Source of the DNA: Chthoniobacteraceae bacterium
GTDB taxonomy: Bacteria > Verrucomicrobiota > Verrucomicrobiia > Chthoniobacterales > Chthoniobacteraceae
Reading direction: 5' to 3'
Assembly (NCBI GenBank): GCA_028293625.1
Contig: JAQGOL010000003.1
Span: 1-64,000 of the forward strand
DNA: 64,000 nt
The notes under the pieces are model-generated. The model searched no databases. It worked only from the letters and a program-made list of their open reading frames with translations, and was not told the DNA's origin. This document shows, piece by piece, positions 35,073-50,067 of the stretch (the stretch's first letter is position 1; each line of letters opens with the position of its first letter). Made by a program: the position numbers and the translations under genes.

Positions 35073-37754
35073 GTGCTGGATCCCGAACTGCGCATCGTGG
35101 CCGTCAGCGACGCTTACGCCCGCGCCACCATAACCTGCCGCGAGGAGATTCTGGGCAAGTCGCTTTTCGAAGTTTTTCCCGATAACCCCGCCGACATCGA
35201 CGCAACCGGCGTGCGAAATCTGCACGCTTCGCTGCAACGCGTTCTGCTCCAGCGCACCAGCGATTCGATGGCGGTGCAAAAATATGACATACGCAAGCTG
35301 GTCGAGGGTGGCTATGTTTTTGAGGAACGCTATTGGAGCCCTTCAAACTCGCCGATCCTGAATGAAGACGGATCGGTCGCCTGGATCATTCATCGTGTCG
35401 AGGACGTTACGGAATCGGTCCGTCTCAATGCCGCCGGCGTTGAGCAAAGTCAGTTAAACAATGCGCTGCACGACTCCCGTCAGGCGGTGGTCAAACTGCT
35501 CGAAGACGCCGTGGCGGCCCGGGAGGAAACCGAAAAGGCGCGGCAGGCTCTGCTTGCGGTCAACCAACGCCTGCAGGCGCTCTTGGAAGCAACACCTGTG
35601 GGAATCTCGTTTTCCGAGGATGCCACCTGCCGGTATGTCACGGGAAATCCCGCTCTCCTGGCACAGTTTGAGATGTCAGCCACAGACAATGTCTCCGCTT
35701 CCGCCCCCGATTTGGCCGCTGCGGGCCGGCAGGTGCGCTACTTTCATGGGCATCGGGAATTATCAGAGGCTGACTTGCCGCTCCAGCGAGCCGCCGCGAC
35801 AAATAAAACGATCCCTCCGATGGTTGTGGAGGTGGAACTGCCCAGCGGGCGCCGCTGGTTTGCCGAGATCTCCGGAGCGCCCGTACGCGACATGCACGGA
35901 AACGTGATCGCAGGCATTGGAATGGTGACGGACATCAGCAAGCGGATCCGGCGCGAGCAGGCGCAGCATGAGAGCGAAGAACGCTTCCGGGAAGTCATCC
36001 AGCACATCGAGGAGGTCTTTTGGATGACTGACCTTGAGAAACACCATATGATCTTCATCAGCGCGGGCTACGAGAAAATCTGGGGCCGCACGTGCGAGTC
36101 TCTGTATGCTTCTCCGCGGGCGTGGCTCGACGCCGTCCATCCCGAAGACCGAGCCCGGGTGCTTGAATGCGCGCTCATCATGCAGGCAGCCGGCAGATAT
36201 GATGAGGAGTATCGGATTATCCGTCCCGACGGCACCGTGAGATGGGTCCGGGACCGAGCCTTTCCGGTCCTCAATTCAAGCGGCGTTGTTTATCGTATGG
36301 CGGGAATTGCCGATGACATTACCGAACGCAAGCAAGCCGGCCAGGCGCTTCAGGAGCGCGAAGAGCGACTGCGGCTTGCCATCAACGCCTCCAATATGGC
36401 GACGTGGGACTGGCACATTCCCTCCGGCCGAATTGAGTGGAATGAGAAACATTACCAAATCATGGGATACGAACCCGGCGAAATCGTACCCTCGTATCAG
36501 GCATGGGCCAGCCGGGTGCATCCCGAGGATCTCCCGGGCACCGAGGAACGGCTTCGCCAGGCCGTAGAACAAGGAAGAGATTACACGGCGGCGTTTCGGA
36601 TCCTTTGGCCAGGCGGCGCGATTTATCACGTTGAAGTCAGTGGCCGAATTGATCGCGGGCCGGCAGGCGATGCGGTCCGCTGTTACGGCGTTCTGATCGA
36701 TTGCACCGAACGCGTCCAGGGCGAGCAGGAGCGCCGCGAGCTGTTGCACTCCACCGCCGAGGCGCTGGCGCTTCTGGACACCCTCCAATATCATGCCCCT
36801 ATCGGCATTGCGTTTATTGACCGCGAATATCGCTACATCCGCGTCAATGAAGAACTCGCGGCCATCAACGGCCTCCCTGTGGCCTCCCATATTGGACACA
36901 CAGCCATGGACGTGGTGCCCGAGCTTTGGCCCCGCATCGAGGCGGGCTACCGGCAGGTCATCGAACACGGGGAGCCTGTCATCGAAATTGAAATGGCCGG
37001 TGAGACCCGCGCCCGGCCGGGTGAAATGCGGCACTGGCTGGTGAGTTATTACCCGGTGCGTCTGGAAGGGGAAATTGCCGGCATCGGTCTCATTGTCATG
37101 GAGATCACCGAGCGCAAACGGCTTGAGCAGGAAGTGCTCGATATCAGCGGTCGCGAACAACGGCGCATCGGCCAGGACTTGCACGACGATATCTGCCAAT
37201 GGCTGGCCGGCATCCAACTTCTCAGCTCCGCCCTTGCAAAGGATCTCACGGAAACCTCGCCTGCAAACGCGACACGCGCCCTGAAAATCGCCGAGAACAT
37301 GGGGCACGTCCTTTCCCGCGCCCGAATGCTCGCACGCGGCCTCACGCCCACCGTGATTGAATCCGAAGGATTGGCCGGCGCGCTGCACGAACTGGCCGCC
37401 AATGCGGAGGAAATGTTTCATATCCGCTGTTTTTTTGACGACGCGGCAATCGTCGAAGTCCGAAGCAAAACCGTTGTGCTGCATCTTTACCGGATCGCCC
37501 AGGAAGCGATCAGCAACGCGGTCCGGCACGGAATGGCCGACGAAATCTTCATTCGCCTTGAAGAACACGATGAGCATCTCCTGCTGCTCATCCGCGATAA
37601 TGGCCGGGCCATCACCCTTCCCCTGCCCCGGACCGCCGGCATGGGGCTGCGCACAATGCGCTATCGCTCCGGGATGATTGGCGCCACGCTTGACATTGGT
37701 CCAGGCCAGCTCCGCGGCACCGAGGTGGCCTGCACCTTTTCAAAAGAACGGTAA
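35073..37754 (+). CDS. Multi-PAS sensor histidine kinase (NarX/HisKA_3 type), N-terminus uncertain
   Basis: Read from GTG 35073, the protein has 893 residues, but the first PAS domain clearly begins about 14 codons earlier (see the 43-residue ORF upstream). Four to five PAS/PAC modules occupy roughly 1-690. The kinase core is of the NarL-partner type: HisKA_3 with the His in REQRRIGQDLHDDICQWLAG (about 695-715), then an HATPase ending MGLRTMRYRSGMIGATL. There is no membrane segment, so it is a cytoplasmic sensor. No LuxR-type response regulator is adjacent, so its partner is encoded elsewhere. Confidence 0.88.
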   Translation: MLDPELRIVAVSDAYARATITCREEILGKSLFEVFPDNPADIDATGVRNLHASLQRVLLQRTSDSMAVQKYDIRKLVEGGYVFEERYWSPSNSPILNEDGSVAWIIHRVEDVTESVRLNAAGVEQSQLNNALHDSRQAVVKLLEDAVAAREETEKARQALLAVNQRLQALLEATPVGISFSEDATCRYVTGNPALLAQFEMSATDNVSASAPDLAAAGRQVRYFHGHRELSEADLPLQRAAATNKTIPPMVVEVELPSGRRWFAEISGAPVRDMHGNVIAGIGMVTDISKRIRREQAQHESEERFREVIQHIEEVFWMTDLEKHHMIFISAGYEKIWGRTCESLYASPRAWLDAVHPEDRARVLECALIMQAAGRYDEEYRIIRPDGTVRWVRDRAFPVLNSSGVVYRMAGIADDITERKQAGQALQEREERLRLAINASNMATWDWHIPSGRIEWNEKHYQIMGYEPGEIVPSYQAWASRVHPEDLPGTEERLRQAVEQGRDYTAAFRILWPGGAIYHVEVSGRIDRGPAGDAVRCYGVLIDCTERVQGEQERRELLHSTAEALALLDTLQYHAPIGIAFIDREYRYIRVNEELAAINGLPVASHIGHTAMDVVPELWPRIEAGYRQVIEHGEPVIEIEMAGETRARPGEMRHWLVSYYPVRLEGEIAGIGLIVMEITERKRLEQEVLDISGREQRRIGQDLHDDICQWLAGIQLLSSALAKDLTETSPANATRALKIAENMGHVLSRARMLARGLTPTVIESEGLAGALHELAANAEEMFHIRCFFDDAAIVEVRSKTVVLHLYRIAQEAISNAVRHGMADEIFIRLEEHDEHLLLLIRDNGRAITLPLPRTAGMGLRTMRYRSGMIGATLDIGPGQLRGTEVACTFSKER

Positions 37755-38312: not shown

Positions 38313-39410
38313 ATGGCCTCCCACTACGAAGAATCCATGCAGCGCGACATCAGCCGTATCCGCGGCAAGATTGTCGCGATGGCGGCTCTCGCTGAACAAG
38401 CCTTGGAGGCAGTGCTGCGGGCGTTTTTGAAGCGGGACCGGCAGCTAGCCTATACAGTGATTCTGCGCGACAGGCGCATTGATGAGCTTGAAAAAGAAAT
38501 AGACCGGCTCTGCCTGGAGTTCATGGTCAGGCAGCAGCCGGTTGCCAGGCAACTGCGCTTTGCCTATACGGCCATCAAGATCAATCAGGAACTTGAACGC
38601 ATCGGAGACTACGCGGAAAGCATCGCCCGCCAGGTGCTCAAGCTGGCGAATATCAAAGGGGAATTGCCGGTTTCAAGCTTTGAGGAAATCGCCCACCGCG
38701 CCATTCCAATGTTTCGCGACGCCGTGCGGGCCTTTACAGAAGAAGACTCGGAGCTCGCCCTGCGGACTATGGTGGTTGAGGACGAGGTGGATGGGATTAA
38801 GTCGTTGATCAACGCTGAGCTATTTGCTCTGAGGCAGGCAGACAAGCTGCCCCTTGAAGCCTTTACGCCTTTGATGACAGTTGCCCGGCGCTTTGAACGG
38901 GTGACCGACCAAGCCAAGAACATCTGCGAGGAGGTGACCTATATGATCACCGGCGAATATGCCAAACACGAGGGCGGCGACGTCTGGCGCATGGTTTTTA
39001 TCGACGACAACAATTGCGCCAGCCAGATAGCCGAGGCGATTGGAAATTCCCTCAAACAGCCCCAGTTCGTATTCAACGGAGCCGGTCTGAGCGCAGCTCC
39101 GGTCAATCCGTTGCTCAATGCATTTTTGGAAAAAAAGGGGCTCGGCACAGGTCGCGTGAGCGCCCGTTCGCTGGAACAAGTTCCCAATGTCGAGTTCAGC
39201 CAGATTCTTGTTGCGCTGACCGCTTCAGCCAAACGCTCCTTTCCCATTGCGCGCAAGGCGCTCCGGCTCGACTGGAGCGAAATGACGGACCCATGCAGCG
39301 CCGACCTTGGCATGGAGGAAAAGGAAGCCGCCTTTGAAGCAACCTATGGCTTTCTGCATGAGCAAATCTCCGATCTGTGCAAAGCGGTGCTCGCGGACAA
39401 CATCGACTAA
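38313..39410 (+). CDS. phoU: PhoU with a C-terminal degenerate LMW phosphatase/ArsC-like domain
   Basis: The protein has 365 residues. Residues 1-215 are two PhoU three-helix repeats with the E/DxxxD metal motifs (ELERIGDYAESI and RFERVTDQAKNI). Residues about 225-355 align with low-molecular-weight tyrosine phosphatases/ArsC: VFIDDNNCASQIAEAIGNSL (228-247) matches the P-loop region and LDWSEMTDP the general-acid loop. The nucleophilic Cys is Ile and the P-loop Arg is Ala, so it should be inactive. PhoU represses the Pho regulon through the Pst transporter; here it is first in the pst operon instead of last. The pseudo-enzyme domain may sense or bind phosphate. Confidence 0.9.
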   Translation: MASHYEESMQRDISRIRGKIVAMAALAEQALEAVLRAFLKRDRQLAYTVILRDRRIDELEKEIDRLCLEFMVRQQPVARQLRFAYTAIKINQELERIGDYAESIARQVLKLANIKGELPVSSFEEIAHRAIPMFRDAVRAFTEEDSELALRTMVVEDEVDGIKSLINAELFALRQADKLPLEAFTPLMTVARRFERVTDQAKNICEEVTYMITGEYAKHEGGDVWRMVFIDDNNCASQIAEAIGNSLKQPQFVFNGAGLSAAPVNPLLNAFLEKKGLGTGRVSARSLEQVPNVEFSQILVALTASAKRSFPIARKALRLDWSEMTDPCSADLGMEEKEAAFEATYGFLHEQISDLCKAVLADNID

Positions 39411-39429: not shown

Positions 39430-40326
39430 ATGAAATTCACCTACCCACTCTTTGCCCTGGCCGGCGTTGCCGTATTTGCCTTTGCCAGCTGCAGCAAGAA
39501 GACTGAAACGGCCGGCTCCGGCGCGCAGAAGCAAACGATCGCCAATATTGGTTCGGATACCATGGTGAACCTCGCCCAGGCATGGGCGGAAAGCTACAGC
39601 ACCCTTAATCCAAACATCTCGGTCGAGGTCGCCGGCGGCGGCTCCGGCGTCGGCGTGGCGGCGCTAATCAACGGCACCTGCGAGATCGCCAACTCGTCGC
39701 GCAAACTGGAAGAGGAAGAGGTGGAAAAATTCAAAGCAAAGCACAATGCCGAGCCGAAGGAATATCTGGTTGGCTACGACGCGCTTTCGATCTACGTCCA
39801 CAAAGACAATCCGATCAACGAGATCAGCATCGAACAGCTCAGCGAGATCTTTCGCGAAGGAGGCGGAATCAATAAATGGAGCGAGCTGGGCATCGCCATT
39901 CCAGCCGGCGGCAACGACGACATCGTCCGCGTCAGCCGTCAGAGTAACTCCGGCACATACCACTACTTCCGCGAGGCAATCGTCGGAAAAAAAGCCGATT
40001 TCAAACTCGGCTCGCGCGACATGAACGGCTCCAAAGATGTCGTTGACCTCGTCTCGCATACGCCCAACGCGATTGGCTACAGCGGACTCGGTTACAACAC
40101 GCCCGCAGTGAAGATTGTCAAAGTATCCAAGAAAAAAGGCGATCCGGGAGTCATGCCTACCATTGAGACCACGCTCGACAAAACCTACCCGATCGCGCGG
40201 CCGATGTTCATGTATACCCCGGGGACGCCTCCCGCCCATATCCAGAAGTATCTTGACTGGATTGTTAGCGATGCGGGCCAGGAGATCGTCAAGCAGATCG
40301 GGTACGTGCCGCTTCCCAAGAAGTAA
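39430..40326 (+). CDS. pstS: Phosphate-binding lipoprotein PstS
   Basis: The 298-residue protein has a lipoprotein signal with lipobox FASC (Cys21). Phosphate-binding segments are visible: IGSDTMVNLA, AGGGSGVGVAAL and SRQSNSGTYHYF. It captures inorganic phosphate outside the membrane and delivers it to PstCA. It lies 19 bases downstream of phoU and begins the transporter genes proper. Confidence 0.94.
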   Translation: MKFTYPLFALAGVAVFAFASCSKKTETAGSGAQKQTIANIGSDTMVNLAQAWAESYSTLNPNISVEVAGGGSGVGVAALINGTCEIANSSRKLEEEEVEKFKAKHNAEPKEYLVGYDALSIYVHKDNPINEISIEQLSEIFREGGGINKWSELGIAIPAGGNDDIVRVSRQSNSGTYHYFREAIVGKKADFKLGSRDMNGSKDVVDLVSHTPNAIGYSGLGYNTPAVKIVKVSKKKGDPGVMPTIETTLDKTYPIARPMFMYTPGTPPAHIQKYLDWIVSDAGQEIVKQIGYVPLPKK

Positions 40327-40384
40327 TTAATCCGCTCACGAACGGCCCGTCGCCATGTAGCGGAACGTTCCTGTAGATTTGCCG

Positions 40385-41380
40385 ATGAGTCTTCCACCCA
40401 ACATAGTAGCCGCCAGGGCCGCCACGGCCGTGCCCTCTTATCTCCCGTCGAAATCCAGACTCTGGCTGCATCTGATGGGCGAAAAGCTGATTGAGTTAAT
40501 CATTCGGCTTTGCGGGATCAGCGCAATCATCTTCATCTTTGCTATCTTCTTCTTCGTCTTCCGCGAAGCAATCCCGCTATTTACCGAAGGCACGGCGCGA
40601 GCCGCAGCGTATGCGGACGCAGGCAAGACGTTTCATTTAGGCGAATTCCTGACGAGCAAGGAATGGTATCCGTCAAGCCAGAGTAATGTGAGGTATGGCG
40701 TCTTCGCCCTGATCGTTGGCACTTTCAGCGTTACGACGCTGGCCATGCTTATTGCGGTGCCGTTTGGACTCGGCGCGGCTATTTTTGTTTCAGAGTTCTG
40801 CGGCCCGCGCCTGAAAGAATCCTTAAAGATCATTATTGAGCTTCTCGCCGCCATCCCGAGCGTAGTCTGGGGCTTTATTGGGCTCATTGTGATGAACCCG
40901 CTCATTATTGGGATTTTCCATGTCCCCGTGGGCCTTAACGTACTAAACGCTGCGATCCTGCTCGCCCTGATGAGCGTGCCGATCATGGTAAGCATCGGTG
41001 AAGACGCCTTGAAAGCCGTGCCGGATTCTTATCGCGAAGCCGGATTGGCACTCGGCGCCACGCAATGGCAGATCATCTACCGGGTGCTGCTTCCGGCCGC
41101 CAAAAATGGCCTGCTTGCGGCTGTCCTCCTGGGAGTCGGACGCGCGGTGGGCGAAACCATGGCCGTGTTGATGGCCACCGGGCACGCGGTCAATATCCCG
41201 CACAGCGTTTTTGATTCGGTGCGCACATTGACTGCAACGATCGCCGCCGAGCTCGGGGAAGCTTCCCAAGGCTCGCAACATTACCGTGTCCTCTTTCTCA
41301 TCGGCGTGTTGCTTTTCTCGATCACCTTTGTCGTCAACCTCACCGCCGACCTCATTGTCCGCGGTGTTCGCAAGCTATGA
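40385..41380 (+). CDS. pstC: Phosphate ABC transporter permease PstC
   Basis: The 331-residue protein starts at ATG 40385 (a TTG six bases upstream is possible). It has six membrane helices and the EAA loop EDALKAVPDSYREAGLALGATQWQIIYRVLLPAA that contacts the ATPase. LLAAIPSVVWGFIGL is the conserved PstC segment. It overlaps pstA by ATGA. Confidence 0.94.
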   Translation: MSLPPNIVAARAATAVPSYLPSKSRLWLHLMGEKLIELIIRLCGISAIIFIFAIFFFVFREAIPLFTEGTARAAAYADAGKTFHLGEFLTSKEWYPSSQSNVRYGVFALIVGTFSVTTLAMLIAVPFGLGAAIFVSEFCGPRLKESLKIIIELLAAIPSVVWGFIGLIVMNPLIIGIFHVPVGLNVLNAAILLALMSVPIMVSIGEDALKAVPDSYREAGLALGATQWQIIYRVLLPAAKNGLLAAVLLGVGRAVGETMAVLMATGHAVNIPHSVFDSVRTLTATIAAELGEASQGSQHYRVLFLIGVLLFSITFVVNLTADLIVRGVRKL

Positions 41381-42273
41381 GTACACAGCTTTTTACCGAG
41401 ACTCCGGGGGTGCGGCGCAGGCTCCGCAATCAGCTGATCGCCAAATGCATTTTCGGCGCGATGGCACTGGCGATGATCATCCCGCTGCTGCTCATCGTGG
41501 CGCACCTTGTCAGCCAGGCGTGGCCGCTGCTTTCATGGGATTTCTTCACGACCAATCCGACCAATGGGATGAAGAAAGGCGGCATCTGGAGCGCTTTGCT
41601 CGGAACCCTTTGGCTGGTTGCTTTCTCACTGCTCATCGCGGCGCCGGTGGGAATCCTTGCGGCTGTCTACATCAATGAGTATGCGAGTGACAATTGGTTC
41701 ACCAGGGTCGTCAATCTGGCCATCATGAATCTGGCGGGCGTGCCCTCCATTGTGCACGCGCTCTTTGGGCTCGGCGCTTTTGTTCTCTTTGCCGGAATTG
41801 GCCGCTCGGTCCTCGCGGCGTCAATGACGCTCGCAATCATGACACTCCCCGTCATCATCGCTTCGACCCGGGAAGCGCTTGCCGCTGTCCCCCGCTCGTT
41901 TCGGGAAGCGTGCTGGAATGTAGGGGCAACCCGATGGCAGACCATTTGGCGCATTGTGCTGCCTAACTCAATCAGCGGCATTCTCACCGGAGTTATCCTT
42001 CAAGTAAGCCGAACCGCCGGCGAAACCGCGCCGGTGATGTTCACGGGTGCCGTCTTCTATCGCAAAATTGCCGAGGGCGACCTCTTTGCCTATTCGCTCA
42101 ATGAGCAATGCATGGCGCTTTCGATGCATCTGTTTGCCATTACCACCCAGGTTACCAACCCGCCCAAGGCGCTCCCTTATGCGGTTGCCACAGCGCTGCT
42201 CTGCGTCGTGCTCCTGGTCAATACTACTGCCATCGCCCTGCGGGTATGGCTTCGCTCCCGAAAGAAATGGTAA
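41377..42273 (+). CDS. pstA: Phosphate ABC transporter permease PstA
   Basis: The 298-residue protein has six membrane helices with the EAA loop TREALAAVPRSFREACWNVGATRWQTIWRIVLPNS and the AGVPSIVHALFGLG segment. It forms the phosphate channel with PstC. It overlaps pstC at the start and pstB1 at the end, showing tight translational coupling. Confidence 0.94.
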   Translation: MSTQLFTETPGVRRRLRNQLIAKCIFGAMALAMIIPLLLIVAHLVSQAWPLLSWDFFTTNPTNGMKKGGIWSALLGTLWLVAFSLLIAAPVGILAAVYINEYASDNWFTRVVNLAIMNLAGVPSIVHALFGLGAFVLFAGIGRSVLAASMTLAIMTLPVIIASTREALAAVPRSFREACWNVGATRWQTIWRIVLPNSISGILTGVILQVSRTAGETAPVMFTGAVFYRKIAEGDLFAYSLNEQCMALSMHLFAITTQVTNPPKALPYAVATALLCVVLLVNTTAIALRVWLRSRKKW

Positions 42274-43028
42274 CTACAAGCAAGGTACAGGTGGAAGATC
42301 TCCGGGTCACTTACGGTTCCAAAGAAGTAATCCACGGCATTAGCTTCGATATCCAGCCGAATGAAATCTTCGGCATCATCGGACCCGCGCAGTCAGGTAA
42401 GACTTCGTTGCTGCGCTGTATCAATCGCACGATTGAACTCACCGTCGGGGCCAAGGTAAAAGGAACAATCCGCGTCGATGGCGAGGATGTGCAACGCGCC
42501 TCCAATGTCTACGGGCTCCGCCGCAAAATCGGGATGGTTGCCCCGCTCCCGGTCGGACTCCCTTTAAGCATTTTCGATAATGTCGCTTTCGCGCCCCGCT
42601 CCGCCGGGATCAGCAACAAGAGCGCGCTAAACGATCTGGTTGAAAAATGCCTCAGGCAAGCCGCGCTCTGGGATGAAGTAAAAGACCGCCTCGATTCACT
42701 TGGAACCAAGCTCTCCGGAGGACAGCAGCAACGGCTTACGATTGCGCGCGCTCTATCTCATTCACCCGAGATTCTCTGCCTGGATGAGTTCAGCATTGCC
42801 ATTGACCCGGTTACCACAATGCGCATTGAGGATGTGCTAAAGGAACTAAAGAAAGAGATGACTATCATTCTGGTCACCAACCTTGTGCAGCAAGCCCGGC
42901 GCCTGGCCGCGCGCACGATGTTCCTTTGGAATGGAGAAATTATCGAGCTCGATCAGACATCGGTTATGTTCGGCGAAAATCCGAAGGATCGGCGTACTTA
43001 CGACTACGTGAACGGCATATTTGGATGA
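42267..43028 (+). CDS. pstB: Phosphate ABC transporter ATPase 1, with defective Q-loop and H-loop
   Basis: The start at ATG 42267 overlaps pstA and gives 253 residues. Walker A (GPAQSGKTS, 39-47) and the signature LSGGQQQ (150-156) are intact. The Q-loop reads GMVAP instead of GMVFQ (residue 93 is Pro), the Walker B/D-loop is LDEFSIAID instead of LDEPTSALD, and the H-loop is VTNLVQQA with Asn for His. The composite site built on this subunit's Walker motifs should be poorly hydrolytic. The second ATPase downstream has the opposite pattern, so the two probably form a heterodimer. Confidence 0.92.
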   Translation: MVTTSKVQVEDLRVTYGSKEVIHGISFDIQPNEIFGIIGPAQSGKTSLLRCINRTIELTVGAKVKGTIRVDGEDVQRASNVYGLRRKIGMVAPLPVGLPLSIFDNVAFAPRSAGISNKSALNDLVEKCLRQAALWDEVKDRLDSLGTKLSGGQQQRLTIARALSHSPEILCLDEFSIAIDPVTTMRIEDVLKELKKEMTIILVTNLVQQARRLAARTMFLWNGEIIELDQTSVMFGENPKDRRTYDYVNGIFG

Positions 43029-43798
43029 ACGACGAGCCCCGCTACTCCATTCAAACCCGGGATCTTTGCCTCTGGTACACAAAGTTCCAGGCGCTCAAGA
43101 ATATCACCGTCGATATCAAGCATGGCCTCATCACGTCGCTCATCGGCCCGAGCGGATGCGGCAAGAGCACTTTGCTGCGCTGTTTTAACCGCGTCAATGA
43201 GCGCTACGGTTACGTCACCACCAAAGGCGAAATCGTGCTTCAGGGTAAAAACATCTACGATGCCGATGTTTCCCTCATGGAGTTGCGAAAAAGCATCGGC
43301 ATGGTTTTTCAACGCCCAAACCCGCTCCCGATCTCGGTCTATGAGAACGTCGTGTTCGGCCTGCGCGTGCACGCCGATGGAAAACTAAAAAGATCGGATC
43401 TCGATGGGGCAGTTGAAAAAGCGCTCAGTGAAGTAGGCCTTTGGAAAGATCTCAAGGATCGCTTGGGCATGAAGGCAACAAACCTTCAGCTTGAGCAGCA
43501 GCAAAAACTATCCATCGCACGATTACTCCCGCTTAAGCCCGAGATTATCCTGATGGATGAACCCGCCAGCGCGCTTGATGTCGAAGGGACCCGCGCCATT
43601 GAAGAGCTGATGTGGAGCCTGGCCGGCCGCTACACCATCGTGATTGTCACCCATAACATGGCCCAGGCCCGCCGCGCCTCCCACGAGTGCATTTTCATGC
43701 TGATGGGTGAACTCGTGGAGCAAAACCGCACCGAAGAGCTTTTCCTCAATCCAAAGAACATCAGGACCGCCGAATACATCGAGGGCCGATACGGTTGA
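43025..43798 (+). CDS. pstB: Phosphate ABC transporter ATPase 2, with degenerate signature motif
   Basis: The start at ATG 43025 overlaps the previous stop (ATGA) and gives 257 residues. Walker A (GPSGCGKST, 41-49), Q-loop (GMVFQRPNPLP), Walker B (ILMDEPASALD) and H-loop (VTHNMAQA) are all canonical PstB. The ABC signature LSGGQQQ is replaced by LQLEQQQ (154-160), so this subunit cannot supply a normal signature to a partner site. Paired with the first ATPase, one complete and one degenerate site result. The gene ends two bases before the stop of the convergent giant ORF. Confidence 0.93.
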   Translation: MNDEPRYSIQTRDLCLWYTKFQALKNITVDIKHGLITSLIGPSGCGKSTLLRCFNRVNERYGYVTTKGEIVLQGKNIYDADVSLMELRKSIGMVFQRPNPLPISVYENVVFGLRVHADGKLKRSDLDGAVEKALSEVGLWKDLKDRLGMKATNLQLEQQQKLSIARLLPLKPEIILMDEPASALDVEGTRAIEELMWSLAGRYTIVIVTHNMAQARRASHECIFMLMGELVEQNRTEELFLNPKNIRTAEYIEGRYG

Positions 43799-43800
43799 GC

Positions 43801-46800
43801 TTAGCGTAGGTTACGCTCTTCGCGTTCAAGCCTGTTGCGGTTCTCAATCTTTGTCCAATCGATAATCAGAGGATTGCTGCGATCCTCATCCGCACGTTTG
43901 CGGCAAACTTGGACTGCTTCTTTCAGAATTTTCTTTGCCGACTCAGATCGCACGTCAACGGATTCAATCCACCCAGCAATTCGCAACTCGCGATCAGGCA
44001 GGTCAGCAAGATCGCGGATCTTCAGCGCATCCCTGAGACTCGGCCACTCGGGCAGTTCTCGCAGCGGGCGATATTCCGCGGAGTTATCTATCACGAATCC
44101 GTAATACCAACCCGCCGAGAGCAATTGCGCTAGGCGGGCCAGTGCCATTTCTCGTTGTGAAGGATCGTTTTTGCCCTCGATCGCGCAGACTGTCGCTTCT
44201 TGAAGTCGGCGCCAAAGTGTCTCCGTGGGCCGTTTTGTACTAATGGCAGCCAACTCTTTTTTTGCGGCACGCACGTCTTTACGTATCAAAGCAACCGTAA
44301 CAAGTTGGCTATCGGGCTTCTCTTTTGAACCCGCAGGCCGAAGGAGTTTCTCAACGTCACTGAGCGCACTGCGCATTTCGTCAAGCCGGCTTGCCGCAAC
44401 GGTCGGCAATGTATCTGGCGCTACCGCTAGATCAGCGAAAATGCGTGCCTGGTCGAGCAAAAGCGACGCGTGATGCGAAACGGAACTTTGCGATTGGACA
44501 TCCTTGGCCAACTTCAGTGCATCCTCGCTATTGCCTGCGGCGTGCAATGCTTCAATCAGATTGCCAATATCGATGTAATAGTCGTCATTATGAAGCTTCA
44601 TCAGGGAGTTCTGAAATGCTTGTACTGCATCTTTCCTTTGATTTTGATTCCATCTCACCAAACCAAGTAGGTTTTGCATGATATGCTCCTCGCCCTTGAG
44701 GTCGCGGCCAGCCTGGATTCCGCGCTCGGCATCGGAATATAGCCCCAACAGCCGAAGCACTTCAGCGAGATTGAAAAATAGCATGGCTTGCTTGACCGAT
44801 TTCAAGTCGGATTCAAGCGCGTGGAGATAGTCACGGACAGCTTCGCGAAGCTCAACATACCTTCTCCTCCGATTCTTTGCGCGGGCTATCTGCAGGTCCA
44901 ATAGAACCTTCCGATCCTGTTTCTCGCTGGCAAGCTGAATTCCTTCTTCGAGCTTGATCCGAGCCCATTGTTGGTCCGTTTCGTTGGACGAGTCCCAATT
45001 GTTCCAGAGCCACAAGTAAGCCTCGGGTTCAGGATATTTTTTCAGACACGCTTCGCCTGCGTTGCGCGCTTCTGCTACTTGCTCCGCTTGCAGGTATAAT
45101 TTCGATTTCTGCGCTAGAAGCTGCGCTTCCTCCTGCTTTCCCTTAGCGCAGTCAATCGCTTTATCGATATCCCAAAGCGCCGCGACGATTCCGGCGTTAT
45201 CAGGGCCGGCATCCGTTAAAATTTTTTCGAATCTTGCACGCTCTGACCAGGCATAGCTCCAACCGGGAGTCTCAGTGGTAGCTTGGACCGCGAGTTTCAA
45301 AGCAGCATTTTCCCATCCGGGAGTATCTCTGAGCTTACTAAGGTCAGCCAAGGCGATAAATAGTTCGGCCCGATTGGCGGGCGTGTCGGCCAAACTCTCT
45401 GCAATACGAAATTGTTTCTCAGCCAAGAGAAATTCACCGAGTTTACGCAGATTAAGTCCTGCGCGCAGCACAAGCGGAAAGGATAGGGGCGCGTTCTTCC
45501 TTACCGCGTCATCGTACAGTGCAACCGCCTCCTTTCGCGTTGCCGTCGTATCCGCTGCTTTCAGAGCATTCACAGCCTCCTCAGCCAGTTTTGCCAATTT
45601 GTGTGCCTGAGTCGCGAGACTTTTTAATTCAGGTAACCGGAGGAGAAAATCTAAATCGCCAGTGCCGAACCGATTCGGGACACCTCCGGCAAATGCGCTC
45701 CTTACAGCAGCTACCCCATTTTCGAGCTCCGGACGCCATGCTGCTGGCAATGCCTTTGCCGTGAGAGCAACAGGCACGTCGCTGAATTTTTTTCCGGTGG
45801 TTTTCTCCCACACAATCTGCAACCGGTTATCAATGGCTTCTGCATAGGCCAAATACAATCCGGCGGCATCCGTCTCTCCGATCTGTGGTGCCCATTCTTT
45901 GATCCGTTCGTGAAGTAAGAGCCAGCAGAGCGGATGCGGAAGGCTCTGAATCGCCCTGAGTGATTTGGCATCCGGCGGGACGGTCAGCGCAAGCAATTCA
46001 GCGAACTTGTTTGCCTCATCAAGATCGCTATAGTCAGGGTTGTTCTCCTTCAGCTCCGCACGAATCGCTGCCACTGGCTCGAGGAGCTTACGGATCTCCG
46101 AAGCTGGAGGCGCCGTGGAAGTCCGTAAATACCATCCATCAAGATGAGCGAGTATTTTCCACGATTCCCGGATCGACGTCGCGAGCTTGGTTTCACAAGC
46201 AAGCTTTCGCCATTCTTCGGTTGATTGCGGTTCAGATTGAAGATGAGTCAGATCGTTGATACGCACTTGCCACCGCTTTTGAGCATCTTCAAAAGAAGAG
46301 TCGGCGGGAATAGCAGCCTGCGGTGCGTTAGTTGAAAGTTTCCATACACGCACGATGTTGGTTTCATCCGTGGCCACAATTGCAGAATTGTCCGGAAAAA
46401 ATCCAACTGCGATAACTGGTTTTGTAAAGGCCGGAATGGTTTCCAATAAGTTGCCGTTATAACAAAGTGAAATGCTACCATCTTCAAGTCCCGCCGCACT
46501 CCACGACCCGCCTGGCGACCATGCAAAGGCTTTGGCGGCCGCTCCTGAATCAATCACGCCTCCGGAGTATCTCAAACGATCGAATCCCCACCGCTTGTCA
46601 TCGATGTCGCCAGCCAAATAACTGCTTCCGTCAGGATTTGCCTCGATAGGCCCCTTGACGCTTTCTGTGCCTCGAGTTGCGTCCCGAAGATTGAAGATAC
46701 TGCACGCCGTTTTATCCCCGGCAGCCAGCTGAGTGCCGGCATCGATAAAAGCAAGGTAATCGATCGGATTTCCGTTGAGCAGAGGCTCCCGCCAGCAGCC

Positions 46801-49800
46801 TTTATAGGCTACCGGAATAGCCGCGAATGGATCCGTCTCCAACAAGGTAACCTCGCCATTCTCAAAGCCCACCGCAAGGTAGCGGCCGTCATGGGAGAAC
46901 GCAAGAGTCCGAATATCGGCCGACGCAGAGCCGACTTCTCTCCCGCCATTCCCATGGGACTTAGGTTTTGCCTCCGTCCTGCCTTTCGCCGGCGGAATTC
47001 TCGCCAATGTTGATCCATCAAGCGTTTGCAACCCATTGCTTTCTTTACCCCCGAGCGTTTTCAGATTTTCCATTGTCCCCATTTGCGCGACTACAATTTC
47101 GTATTTGGAAATAAGTTCCGCAGCAGCGTCAGGAGCCTGCGTACCAGGGGCCTCAATCAATCTTCTTCTAACGATTGCGATGAGTCCAAGTGTCGGGCAT
47201 GTGGCGACCGCTTTTACGTCGACTGCCAGTTCGACCAACGGGGATATCTTTTCCACCGCGCTTTTCGGCAATGCGGTTAGCCGAGTCAACGTGTCGTGAT
47301 TAAATTCGAAAATTGCTACCCCGCCCTCCTTGTAGACGATGCCGCTGCGATAGATCCGTCCACTCCGGCTGCCAACGATAAATCCACACAGCACCTCATT
47401 GGTTAACTCGACGGCATGGGTGGCTATCTTACCTGAAGTTAAATCCCAAACTTGAAACAAGTTCCATTGATTGCCTGTGTAGATAAATTGCCTGTCGCGC
47501 GAGAAGGCAACCTGCACTCGCAATCGAAGTCGGTCCAAAAGGTTCGAACTGCCTTTCCAGCGGCGCAATGCCGTGGCATCGGCGATCGCACCGGCAAAGA
47601 GCACCACGCCAGTTTGTCGTGCGTCACGCACTGTCCAATGTCCCTCCCAATCGCCGATCACGATCCATTCGCTGTCAGAAGAATAGGCAACCGACTCGAT
47701 TTTCGTCGATACAGCAAACGAATCATCAAGCTTCTCTCCTGTCTCGGCACTGCGTTGCTCAACCGCGCCTTCACTGGTTGCGATCAGAAAGCGCGATTCG
47801 TCGGGGCTGAAAACCAGCGCAGTTGGGCGCCCGTCAACTTTCCATTTTCGGCCCGTTGGCTCTCTGTTGTTAACATCCCACTCGGTCACGTTTCCGTCGC
47901 GGTCGGCTGCAATCAGGCGGGCCCCGTTAGTCGACACCGCCAGGCAGGTCCAAAGGTCGCTTCCGCTCGGCTCGCGCAACGCATGTAATTCTGAGGAGGT
48001 TGGGTCCGATTGCAGACGAAGGGCGCCGTCGCGAGTCGCGGTGACGACGCCTTTCCCGGCGAACGCGGCCAGGCAAACATTAGCCGGCAGACGGTGTTCC
48101 ACTGGATGAGCGGCCGGGATCAGGTCCCAAAGATGACAATCCCCGTTCATATCCACCACCAATAGGCGCTCATCACCTTCGTTGAGGCAAAATGCAGGCA
48201 CTACTTTAAAGTAGGGAGAATCGGGATCGTTCCCCTCCCGCCCATCGCGTAACGGAAAGTCGATTGCAGGCAGATTCGGGGATAGCGCTTCCGTTTTTTG
48301 CGACAGATCCCATGCCGATAACGTGAGGCCATCTTGATAGCCTGGTGTCTCTCCCAGAAAGAGCATTCCGGGACCTTGTGGCCAGGAAATTATTCTGGCG
48401 ATACTCCCGCCTTCCGGCAGTTTGAAGGCTCCTGCCGGCTCCAGCCAGGTCGCCCTTTCCGGCCCTGGTATCCAACCGTGCGGATCTATCTTGGAGCTGT
48501 CGTCACGCGGCCGCTTTCGTTTGACATCGAGTTCTTTTGCGGCGTCGAGAGATGCAAACTGGCCGGCGCCAAGCTTGATCTCCGCCGCAGGATCGATCGC
48601 GTAACGCTCAAGGAAAGTAGCCGCCACAAAACGGCGTCCGTTTTTCCATAGATCGGTAATTTCTTTGCGGTAGAGTTTTGCGAAGGCTTCCGAGCGCTCA
48701 GCATTCGATTTTTCCGCCTGATCAGCTTTAGCCCTTGCTTGCGCCTCTGCCGCCCGTGCCTGCTGCGCAGCCTCATCGGCTCTTTTGCGCTGAACCTGGG
48801 CATTGCGGCTCGCGTCCATTGCTTCACTACGCTGCATCCAAGCGATGATCGCAAGCGGCAGGCAGGCAAACAGAAGCACTCCCGCCGCCACGGTCGCCGC
48901 GCGCGCGGCAAGCCGTGCCCAGTTTCGAGGAAGCTGTTCGCGAACCCAACGGCGGTCGAAGTTCGCGCGATAGATCGGATTCTTTACAACCAGCCGTCCA
49001 GCCGCGTTACGAACAAGGCCGGAGAGCTTAAGTCGCGTTACCTCGGGTGCGACTTCGCTGTCTTCAACTCGCGCGCCGCACCAGATCCGGCGGTAAAGCC
49101 GCAGGAGATCATCGAATTTCTGAACATTCGTGCCGGAGTGCCGCTCACTGAGAATCCGGTCACGGATAAAAGTCAAATTGGGTTCCGTCTCGCGCGCACG
49201 CTGGGTCAGGAAAAGCTCGCGTGCGATCCGGTCGACCGCAGCGTTGTCGCGGGCATCGGGTTGCGCGGCGACTGCTTCGCAGATTTTCTGAGTGAGATAC
49301 GGCTGGCCGCATGACCAATGGAAGGCGCGGCGCACGAGTGCTTCGGCCTGCGGCCGAGGAAGGTCCGGCATTCCATCCGCAAGGCATAACGCTTCCGCTT
49401 CAGTAAAGTCGCACAGCTCGATGCGGCGCCCAATATTGAAGGGTGTGACTTGTTTGTTGGTGATGAGATCCGCAGGAGAGGCAACGCCAAGCAGGCAGAA
49501 CGAAAGCCGTTTGAGCTCCTCATCCTGACTGCGACGATTATAGAGCTCACGAATGCCAATGAAAAACTCGTCGGTCGGAAAGCTGAGGCTGCGTACGAGA
49601 TCAATTTCATCGACGATGATCGTGATTCTCCCGGGAATCTTCGCCAGCAAAACCCGCCGCAGCACTTCCACCCACATCTGGTGCGGACCGAGCACTTTTT
49701 TCTGCGCACGGAAGGCGTCAATTTCATCCTCAATGTCGAAGTCAGCGCCGATCCGCTCCAGCATTCCATCAAACCACTGAGCGACGGTGACATCTGTGCC

Positions 49801-50067
49801 GATGCTTGAGAGATCGAAAAAGCAGACGCGGATTCCCTGTTGCCGGAGACGGTAGGCCGCGCGGCTAAAGAGAGACGATTTCCCCATCTGCCGCGAGGTG
49901 AGCACATAACAAAACTCTCCACGCAACATTGCTTCGTACAACTCGCGGTCGGCTTGACGCTCAACATAGGAGACAGCCTTTGGCTCCATCGTGCCGCCGG
50001 TGACGAAAAAAGCCGGATGCTCAGGATGCGGAGATCCGGAAAAATCGGGGAATGAATTGGTATTCAC
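43801..50067 (-). CDS. Giant STAND-like AAA ATPase with membrane segment, WD40-type propeller and TPR region
   Basis: The 2088-residue protein contains an AAA_35-like ATPase (about 30-300; Walker A SRQMGKSS 58-65, Walker B IVDEID 151-156, and the family elements TPFNIGRRIELCDF and GQPYLTQ). A winged-helix-like segment (about 310-375), one membrane helix (about 388-411) and an Ala-rich coiled coil (415-465) follow. Then come WD40-type propeller repeats (about 540-1250, e.g. LAFSHDGRYLAVGFENGEVTLLE), an uncharacterised helical part and TPR-like repeats (about 1540-1900). It follows the TIR-AAA gene by 12 bases and shares its ATPase type, so the pair likely works together. GC content is visibly lower than in neighbours, which suggests transfer. 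Propeller and TPR arrays usually act as ligand sensors in STAND proteins. Confidence 0.88.
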   Translation of the reverse strand: MNTNSFPDFSGSPHPEHPAFFVTGGTMEPKAVSYVERQADRELYEAMLRGEFCYVLTSRQMGKSSLFSRAAYRLRQQGIRVCFFDLSSIGTDVTVAQWFDGMLERIGADFDIEDEIDAFRAQKKVLGPHQMWVEVLRRVLLAKIPGRITIIVDEIDLVRSLSFPTDEFFIGIRELYNRRSQDEELKRLSFCLLGVASPADLITNKQVTPFNIGRRIELCDFTEAEALCLADGMPDLPRPQAEALVRRAFHWSCGQPYLTQKICEAVAAQPDARDNAAVDRIARELFLTQRARETEPNLTFIRDRILSERHSGTNVQKFDDLLRLYRRIWCGARVEDSEVAPEVTRLKLSGLVRNAAGRLVVKNPIYRANFDRRWVREQLPRNWARLAARAATVAAGVLLFACLPLAIIAWMQRSEAMDASRNAQVQRKRADEAAQQARAAEAQARAKADQAEKSNAERSEAFAKLYRKEITDLWKNGRRFVAATFLERYAIDPAAEIKLGAGQFASLDAAKELDVKRKRPRDDSSKIDPHGWIPGPERATWLEPAGAFKLPEGGSIARIISWPQGPGMLFLGETPGYQDGLTLSAWDLSQKTEALSPNLPAIDFPLRDGREGNDPDSPYFKVVPAFCLNEGDERLLVVDMNGDCHLWDLIPAAHPVEHRLPANVCLAAFAGKGVVTATRDGALRLQSDPTSSELHALREPSGSDLWTCLAVSTNGARLIAADRDGNVTEWDVNNREPTGRKWKVDGRPTALVFSPDESRFLIATSEGAVEQRSAETGEKLDDSFAVSTKIESVAYSSDSEWIVIGDWEGHWTVRDARQTGVVLFAGAIADATALRRWKGSSNLLDRLRLRVQVAFSRDRQFIYTGNQWNLFQVWDLTSGKIATHAVELTNEVLCGFIVGSRSGRIYRSGIVYKEGGVAIFEFNHDTLTRLTALPKSAVEKISPLVELAVDVKAVATCPTLGLIAIVRRRLIEAPGTQAPDAAAELISKYEIVVAQMGTMENLKTLGGKESNGLQTLDGSTLARIPPAKGRTEAKPKSHGNGGREVGSASADIRTLAFSHDGRYLAVGFENGEVTLLETDPFAAIPVAYKGCWREPLLNGNPIDYLAFIDAGTQLAAGDKTACSIFNLRDATRGTESVKGPIEANPDGSSYLAGDIDDKRWGFDRLRYSGGVIDSGAAAKAFAWSPGGSWSAAGLEDGSISLCYNGNLLETIPAFTKPVIAVGFFPDNSAIVATDETNIVRVWKLSTNAPQAAIPADSSFEDAQKRWQVRINDLTHLQSEPQSTEEWRKLACETKLATSIRESWKILAHLDGWYLRTSTAPPASEIRKLLEPVAAIRAELKENNPDYSDLDEANKFAELLALTVPPDAKSLRAIQSLPHPLCWLLLHERIKEWAPQIGETDAAGLYLAYAEAIDNRLQIVWEKTTGKKFSDVPVALTAKALPAAWRPELENGVAAVRSAFAGGVPNRFGTGDLDFLLRLPELKSLATQAHKLAKLAEEAVNALKAADTTATRKEAVALYDDAVRKNAPLSFPLVLRAGLNLRKLGEFLLAEKQFRIAESLADTPANRAELFIALADLSKLRDTPGWENAALKLAVQATTETPGWSYAWSERARFEKILTDAGPDNAGIVAALWDIDKAIDCAKGKQEEAQLLAQKSKLYLQAEQVAEARNAGEACLKKYPEPEAYLWLWNNWDSSNETDQQWARIKLEEGIQLASEKQDRKVLLDLQIARAKNRRRRYVELREAVRDYLHALESDLKSVKQAMLFFNLAEVLRLLGLYSDAERGIQAGRDLKGEEHIMQNLLGLVRWNQNQRKDAVQAFQNSLMKLHNDDYYIDIGNLIEALHAAGNSEDALKLAKDVQSQSSVSHHASLLLDQARIFADLAVAPDTLPTVAASRLDEMRSALSDVEKLLRPAGSKEKPDSQLVTVALIRKDVRAAKKELAAISTKRPTETLWRRLQEATVCAIEGKNDPSQREMALARLAQLLSAGWYYGFVIDNSAEYRPLRELPEWPSLRDALKIRDLADLPDRELRIAGWIESVDVRSESAKKILKEAVQVCRKRADEDRSNPLIIDWTKIENRNRLEREERNLR

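Follow-up and report, generated by a model that had tools for sequence, protein, structure and literature searches.

Researchers have long asked how phosphate is sensed by the Pst-PhoU system. We describe a gene from a Chthoniobacteraceae bacterium that encodes PhoU joined to a domain related to ArsC and to low-molecular-weight protein tyrosine phosphatases (LMW-PTPs), and that heads a pst operon. It lies in a stretch of 64,000 nucleotides, hereafter the window (assembly GCA_028293625.1, contig JAQGOL010000003.1, positions 1 to 64,000). A first-pass annotation, made from the sequence and its open reading frames (ORFs), had read the gene as PhoU with an inactive phosphatase-like tail. The gene and its parts are as follows.

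38313..39410, + strand: PhoU with a pseudo-ArsC domain of LMW-PTP fold, 365 aa (ORF, profile matches and model)
38313..38951, + strand: PhoU part (residues 1-213), all-helical, with two PhoU domains (profiles; model helices H4-40 to H181-213; Foldseek match to 1t72)
38952..38981, + strand: linker, about residues 214-223 (lower model confidence, with a predicted local distance difference test score (pLDDT) of 66 for block 211-220)
38982..39392, + strand: pseudo-ArsC domain, about residues 224-360 (PDB sequence match and predicted fold)
39000..39026, + strand: degenerate P-loop, I230-D-D-N-N-C-A-S-Q238 (Cys replaced by Asp231, one residue missing before N233, Arg replaced by Ala236)
39288..39293, + strand: DP pair, D326-P327, with one residue inserted before it (family alignment)

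PhoU with a probable ArsC-like pseudophosphatase domain

The N-terminal part is PhoU by profile and by context: TIGR02135 scores 161.6 bits, above its curated cut-off of 130.25, PF01895 matches in two stretches (1.6e-37), and the gene is encoded with pstSCAB genes. Foldseek places this part of the model on 1t72 (TMt 0.96). Two PhoU domains, the pst operon and the fold are thus shared with known PhoU proteins, whereas the fusion carries an extra C-terminal domain of about 140 residues and comes first in its operon, the other phoU of the same genome coming last.

The LMW-PTP/ArsC fold of the tail is weak in sequence but clear in the predicted structure. TIGR02691, the thioredoxin-linked ArsC family, matches at 3.4e-7 with 30.6 bits, far under its cut-off of 174.3, and Pfam LMWPc reaches 14.4 bits (E 0.045), under its curated cut-off of 23.2; the top PDB sequence match is 8p5n (5.9e-7). 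A full-length AlphaFold model, built on an alignment of 40 fusions, has a pLDDT of 89 and a predicted template modelling score (pTM) of 0.62, and the domain modelled alone has a pLDDT of 89 and a pTM of 0.87. Foldseek leads from the C-terminal part to the ArsC structures 8p5n and 1jl3, and VIA-align superposes the predicted domain on Bacillus subtilis ArsC 1jl3 with Z 18.9 (root-mean-square deviation 2.1, 135 residues aligned) and on LMW-PTPs with Z about 16. By predicted fold and sequence together, the domain is nearer to ArsC than to tyrosine phosphatases. Comparison with LMW-PTP and ArsC structures had been set beforehand as a check on the first-pass reading, and the same fold is predicted.

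The register of the active site was set by aligning the window protein with ten relatives and then with 39. The usual family P-loop, F-I/V-D-x-x-N-x-C-R-S-Q, here reads F-I-D-D-(gap)-N-N-C-A-S-Q. F229 falls in the Phe column (Phe in 48 of 49 rows of the Asp clade, a set that leaves out L056, L149, L101 and L102; L numbers are our locus labels), Asp231 occupies the column of the nucleophile Cys in the family alignment, the loop is one residue shorter, with the gap between D232 and N233, and the Arg is Ala236. Beyond the loop, the SAG serine is Gly256, and the columns of the ArsC redox Cys pair, which we take to be C82/C89 of pI258, hold Thr and Phe. Several pocket neighbours are kept, with matching residues in the Asp-clade rows: N233 in 49/49, S237 in 48/49, D326 in 43/49 and P327 in 47/49. 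The first-pass annotation had the ORF, the PhoU assignment with its LMW-PTP/ArsC-like tail, the SxxAEAI helix, the DP pair and the Arg-to-Ala change right, but it placed Ile at the nucleophile position. That reading is off by one because it follows a register without gaps, the one that pairwise alignment with 8p5n implies as well.

We rejected a frame or assembly error as the source of the P-loop gap and judge the gap real, because a whole codon is absent and the Arg, Ser and DP-loop changes lie nearby. We also rejected Cys235 as a relocated nucleophile. It corresponds to the normal second Cys of the P-loop, which 53 of 63 PhoU fusions have (a count inflated by the scan pattern described below), and among 103 rows not fused to PhoU this column holds Cys in 67, Ala in 35 and Gly in 1. 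The first-pass concern that the family keeps a Cys in an alternative position is therefore not borne out.

The domain shares with thioredoxin-linked ArsC (TIGR02691; 1jl3, 1ljl, 8p5n) the fold, the P-loop scaffold, the AEA helix and the AG, W and DP positions, but has Asp for the nucleophile Cys, Ala for the Arg, no redox cysteines and a shorter loop. With its predicted fold kept and its catalytic residue lost in the alignment, the window domain is most likely a pseudophosphatase. Pseudophosphatases such as STYX (Cys to Gly) and inactive rhodanese modules likewise keep a fold in which the catalytic Cys is replaced, although folds and hosts differ. To our knowledge, neither STYX-type pseudophosphatases nor inactive rhodanese modules have been linked to PhoU.

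A widespread family and separate intact fusions

A contig scan with a P-loop pattern asking for [CG][RAG]SQ, which leaves the nucleophile column outside the pattern, returned at least 80 loci, at least 39 of them PhoU fusions (L019-L057). Among the matches listed, the titles of fusion loci name several Verrucomicrobia groups, Acidobacteria (Vicinamibacteria, Holophagales, Thermoanaerobaculia), Deltaproteobacteria/Polyangiaceae and Chitinivibrionales. At E <= 1e-25, the fusion was found in 12 of 213 genomes of the window's order, the window's own included, spread over three genera of one family, and in 9 of 120 genomes of the phylum of the Chitinivibrionales locus, again including that locus. 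No match in a viral fold library reached E <= 0.001, and none of the 104 matching plasmid records covered 80% of the query, so the full fusion was not found there. A description of a PhoU-ArsC fusion, the catalytically intact ones included, was not found among the open-access papers searched; publication elsewhere is possible.

Dropping identical domain cores left 63 distinct fusions, in which the nucleophile column holds Asp in 55, Gly in 4, Cys in 3 and Glu in 1. Clustering at 90% identity gives 55 clusters with Asp in 48, Gly in 3, Cys in 3 and Glu in 1. The nucleophile Cys is kept in 100 of the 103 rows not fused to PhoU, some of which are fused to other things. Elsewhere in the P-loop of the 63 fusions, Asn and Ser are each present in 61, Arg in 52 and the second Cys in 53, the last two counts being inflated because the scan pattern asked for [CG][RAG]SQ. 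The DP acid is present in 55/63, with the shifted DP of the window scored as a miss, and the P-loop Arg is missing from 11 of the 60 Asp, Gly or Glu fusions, the window's among them. The resolving-Cys column of ArsC holds Phe in 43/49 Asp-clade rows, compared with Cys in 54/56 rows not fused to PhoU, and both redox cysteines are absent from all 31 cassette rows of the domain tree. The first-pass proposal of an inactive copy of a phosphate- or arsenate-binding fold wired to PhoU agrees with the predicted fold and with the absence of the nucleophile Cys from 60 of the 63 fusions.

In 11 close pairs of relatives, some sharing a member and none including the window copy, the ratio of nonsynonymous to synonymous substitution rates (dN/dS, or omega) is 0.03-0.25 for the domain and 0-0.18 for the PhoU part. 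Selection on the domain is purifying in these relatives, with somewhat less constraint than on PhoU.

We placed 79 domains in an unrooted tree, with the P-loop and redox columns removed and the bootstrap not fully settled. Cassette fusions form a single clade (100/98). The Asp clade within the tree has support of 100/99, and beside it branch L056 (Gly) and L165 and L166 (Cys), the latter two from the phylum of the Polyangiaceae locus. From this arrangement, as far as an unrooted tree allows, we infer that the redox pair was lost first in the cassette lineage and the nucleophile replaced later. The first-pass suggestion to look for catalytic residues in other PhoU fusions thus has a divided answer: the cassette family generally goes without them, but L165 and L166 keep the nucleophile Cys, though not the redox pair. 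A further PhoU-LMWPc fusion in the genome of L165 (L190 16763-17890, - strand) has Ser for the Cys and no redox cysteines, and is separate from the cassette PhoUs in a quick tree.

Four other fusions of the window's phylum (L130, L224, L225, L226) retain all three ArsC cysteines. They have domain order, phylum and pst operon in common with the window fusion, but follow a single canonical PstB of LSGGQ/VTHN type (the fetched stretch of L224 is without pstS) and fall elsewhere among ArsC, apart from the cassette clade. One origin of all PhoU-ArsC fusions was rejected (approximately unbiased test, p-AU 1.2e-5), as was a single clade of the intact fusions (p 0.007), in both cases with groups chosen after the tree was seen. 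On these sequence trees, catalytically intact PhoU-ArsC fusions arose separately in the window's phylum. L224, L225, L226 and the L190 fusion stand outside the 63; they come from low-scoring matches, many of them unfetched, so intact fusions are under-sampled. An ArsR::ArsC gene precedes pstS in L225, L226 and L130; L225 further encodes ArsJ (541 bits against a cut-off of 400) and a partial ArsJ-associated GAPDH, and the L226 contig ends just past ArsR::ArsC. These pst operons with a terminal intact fusion and arsenic genes (L225 3-8623, L226, L130) may serve arsenate handling.

LMWPc domains are joined to other proteins as well. In the window's phylum, ten PAS-sigma54 activators carry one (L103, L112, L114, L115, L121, L123, L125, L205, L206, L207). 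In five of them, either the Cys is gone (L121 has Asp, L206 has Gly) or the P-loop Arg is (L114, L123, L207); judged from these residues, PAS-sigma54 activators are another regulator family with pseudo-LMWP domains. Two proteins of about 340 aa (L219 633-1649, L220 1550-2569) have a C-terminal LMWPc with Gly or Ser as nucleophile, behind an N-terminal stretch of about 195 residues that no Pfam family matches at 1e-5. In L156 (1480-2739, - strand), LMWPc is joined to a phosphomethylpyrimidine kinase domain.

The Pst cassette and its paired PstB ATPases

Five further genes of the window complete the cassette.

39430..40326, + strand: pstS, phosphate-binding protein (PBP_like_2)
40379..41380, + strand: pstC, permease, TTG start as listed
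41377..42273, + strand: pstA, permease
42267..43028, + strand: pstB1, canonical LSGGQ and Walker A/B, Asn in place of the switch His (ILVTN); putative start, other ATG at 42246
43025..43798, + strand: pstB2, Walker A/B and His canonical (IVTHN), QLEQQ in place of LSGGQ; putative start

The order fusion-pstS-pstC-pstA-pstB1-pstB2 is complete in 27 of the 39 loci listed; the remaining 12 lie on contigs that stop no more than about 3.5 kb downstream of the domain. Among PstB rows picked at >55% identity to the window copies, all 28 of PstB1 have LSGGQ and Walker motifs with VTN replacing VTH, and all 27 of PstB2 have LEQQ replacing the signature, with VTH in 26 and the last one cut off. The motif losses of the two proteins are complementary in all rows compared. 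The Cys-type cassettes L190 and L191 carry the same degenerate pair, and the ordinary pstSCAB-phoU operon of the window's genome (G000 C27), whose PhoU is without the extra domain, has a PstB with LSGGQ and VTHN.

In ABC dimers, each ATP site is formed by the Walker site of one subunit facing the signature of the other. Judged by motifs, the live site would be the one made of the PstB2 Walker motifs and the PstB1 LSGGQ, and the opposite one would be degenerate, an arrangement of one canonical and one degenerate composite site as in degenerate-site heterodimeric ABC ATPases. Two adjacent pstB genes also occur in Enterococcus faecalis (Firmicutes), where both reportedly have canonical motifs (PMC12096839), whereas the window-type PstBs each lack a different motif.

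The pair does not track the fusion strictly. PstB1 was found in 7 of 387 genomes of the phylum (E <= 1e-85), four with the fusion and three with plain PhoU, and a strict link was rejected because those three carry plain PhoU at the operon end. We conclude from the same three genomes that the PstB pair is independent of the fusion. In their pstSCAB1B2 operons (L201-L203), PhoU is last, and the PstB2 signature of L202 is LEQRQ.

A survey of 24 cassette loci, of which 23 yielded 116 neighbour ORFs, found PhoU_div/DUF47 in 8, Pit/PHO4 in 7 and a phosphate porin in 2. Among the 123 neighbour Pfam families, the 25 commonest, which are those listed, include none linked to arsenic. In the window, a multi-PAS histidine kinase with HisKA_3 and HATPase_c lies upstream of the fusion gene (35073-37754, + strand), and a 2088-aa protein with AAA_35 and WD40-like repeats (43801-50067, - strand) is convergent with the cassette. 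There are no tRNAs within the window.

Possible roles: regulatory module, anion sensor or relic

We favour, with modest confidence, a reading in which the gene encodes PhoU with a catalytically dead relative of thioredoxin-type ArsC, heading a dedicated Pst cassette and acting as a non-enzymatic regulatory or docking module. The fusion itself, the predicted fold, the loss of nucleophile and redox cysteines, the conservation of the cassette across phyla and the purifying selection in relatives are what the analysis shows; the domain would have no enzymatic job and would serve PhoU as a regulatory or docking surface. Reportedly, Escherichia coli PhoU acts on PhoR together with PstSCAB (PMC4423584), and Mycobacterium smegmatis PhoU paralogues are likely sensors of intracellular inorganic phosphate (PMC12301784). 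A module on PhoU could therefore adjust transporter or kinase contact, or read an anion. We suggest that it may adjust the coupling, through PhoU, between the PstB1-PstB2 pair and the Pho sensor kinase. In relatives that keep the Arg, the pocket may still take an oxyanion or a phosphorylated partner, and the window copy, with its eroded pocket, would probably act through its surface only.

Several observations weigh against a working module. The full-length model, with its pTM of only 0.62, predicts no interface between the domain and PhoU. The omega of the domain exceeds that of PhoU in 10 of the 11 pairs, which means faster evolution. Of eight rows compared, the window domain has diverged furthest, with a mean identity of 44.4% compared with 49-55% (for the PhoU part, 58.4% compared with 60-61% in the others), which also fits decay. 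Finally, the Myxococcota cassette members L165 and L166 keep the nucleophile Cys, so the family is not uniformly dead.

The strongest rival, although we consider it rather unlikely, is an oxyanion sensor, in which the pseudo-domain P-loop binds phosphate without turnover and signals to PhoU. The kept Asn (61), Ser (61) and Arg (52) of the 63 fusions, the DP acid in 55, the phosphate operon with its phosphate-gene neighbours and the M. smegmatis paralogues would all suit such a sensor. However, a carboxylate at the Cys position should, on general chemistry, repel an anion, the scan pattern biases the Arg count upwards, and 11 of the 60 Asp, Gly or Glu fusions lack the Arg. In the window copy the Arg, the SAG serine and one residue of the loop are all missing, and with Asp at the Cys position anion binding by this copy is doubtful; oxyanion sensing by it is unlikely, and we favour contact with partners there because three pocket elements are gone.

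Loss of function in this copy alone is somewhat less credible still. Here the domain would have worked in relatives, but in the window copy its pocket would be lost and the domain itself would be drifting, as the lowest family identity of the eight rows, two active-site indels, the missing Arg and SAG Ser and a second Pst-PhoU in the genome might suggest; against this, the frame and the cassette are intact, the predicted fold holds at a pLDDT of 89, and Asp231, Asn233, Ser237 and the DP pair are kept. An arsenate/phosphate discriminator or arsenate-responsive switch, which the first-pass annotation had also raised, would draw on the ArsC fold and on the separate intact fusions in pst operons beside ArsR::ArsC (L130, L225, L226) and ArsJ with part of a GAPDH (L225), but it is quite improbable for the window-type loci, which have no arsenic family among their 25 commonest neighbour families, and from which the intact fusions stand apart in the tree. 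Continued enzyme activity of the domain, in which Asp231 would be the phospho-acceptor or Cys235 the nucleophile, is scarcely credible: Asp is the strongly preferred replacement (55/60) and the DP acid is mostly kept, but five fusions have Gly or Glu, the window and ten others have lost the Arg, Cys235 is replaced in 10/63 fusions, and Cys-to-Asp mutants of protein tyrosine phosphatases are generally inactive.

Beyond the favoured reading of a non-enzymatic module, a broader and more speculative account, which we put forward tentatively, may be drawn for the family. ArsC would have been fused to PhoU several times, and one lineage, present in at least four phyla by record titles, would have turned it, through Cys-to-Asp replacement and loss of the redox cysteines, into a sensor of an oxyanion or phospho-partner, gating an asymmetric Pst importer in which one ATPase site is live and the other dead. 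If true, this would be a phosphate-sensing architecture distinct from canonical PstSCAB-PhoU.

The wider family, with its Cys-to-Asp signature, repeated fusions and asymmetric PstB pair, is a more interesting result than the single ORF. A fold that recognises phosphate or arsenate has been tethered to PhoU repeatedly, with the catalytic residues removed in a phosphate cassette and kept in other fusions, three of four of which lie beside arsenic genes. With motif losses that complement each other, the PstB pair allows one of the two ATP sites in a Pst importer to be tested separately, and the Asp-type, Cys-type and domain-less forms are constructs for asking whether a domain linked to PhoU reads the anion.
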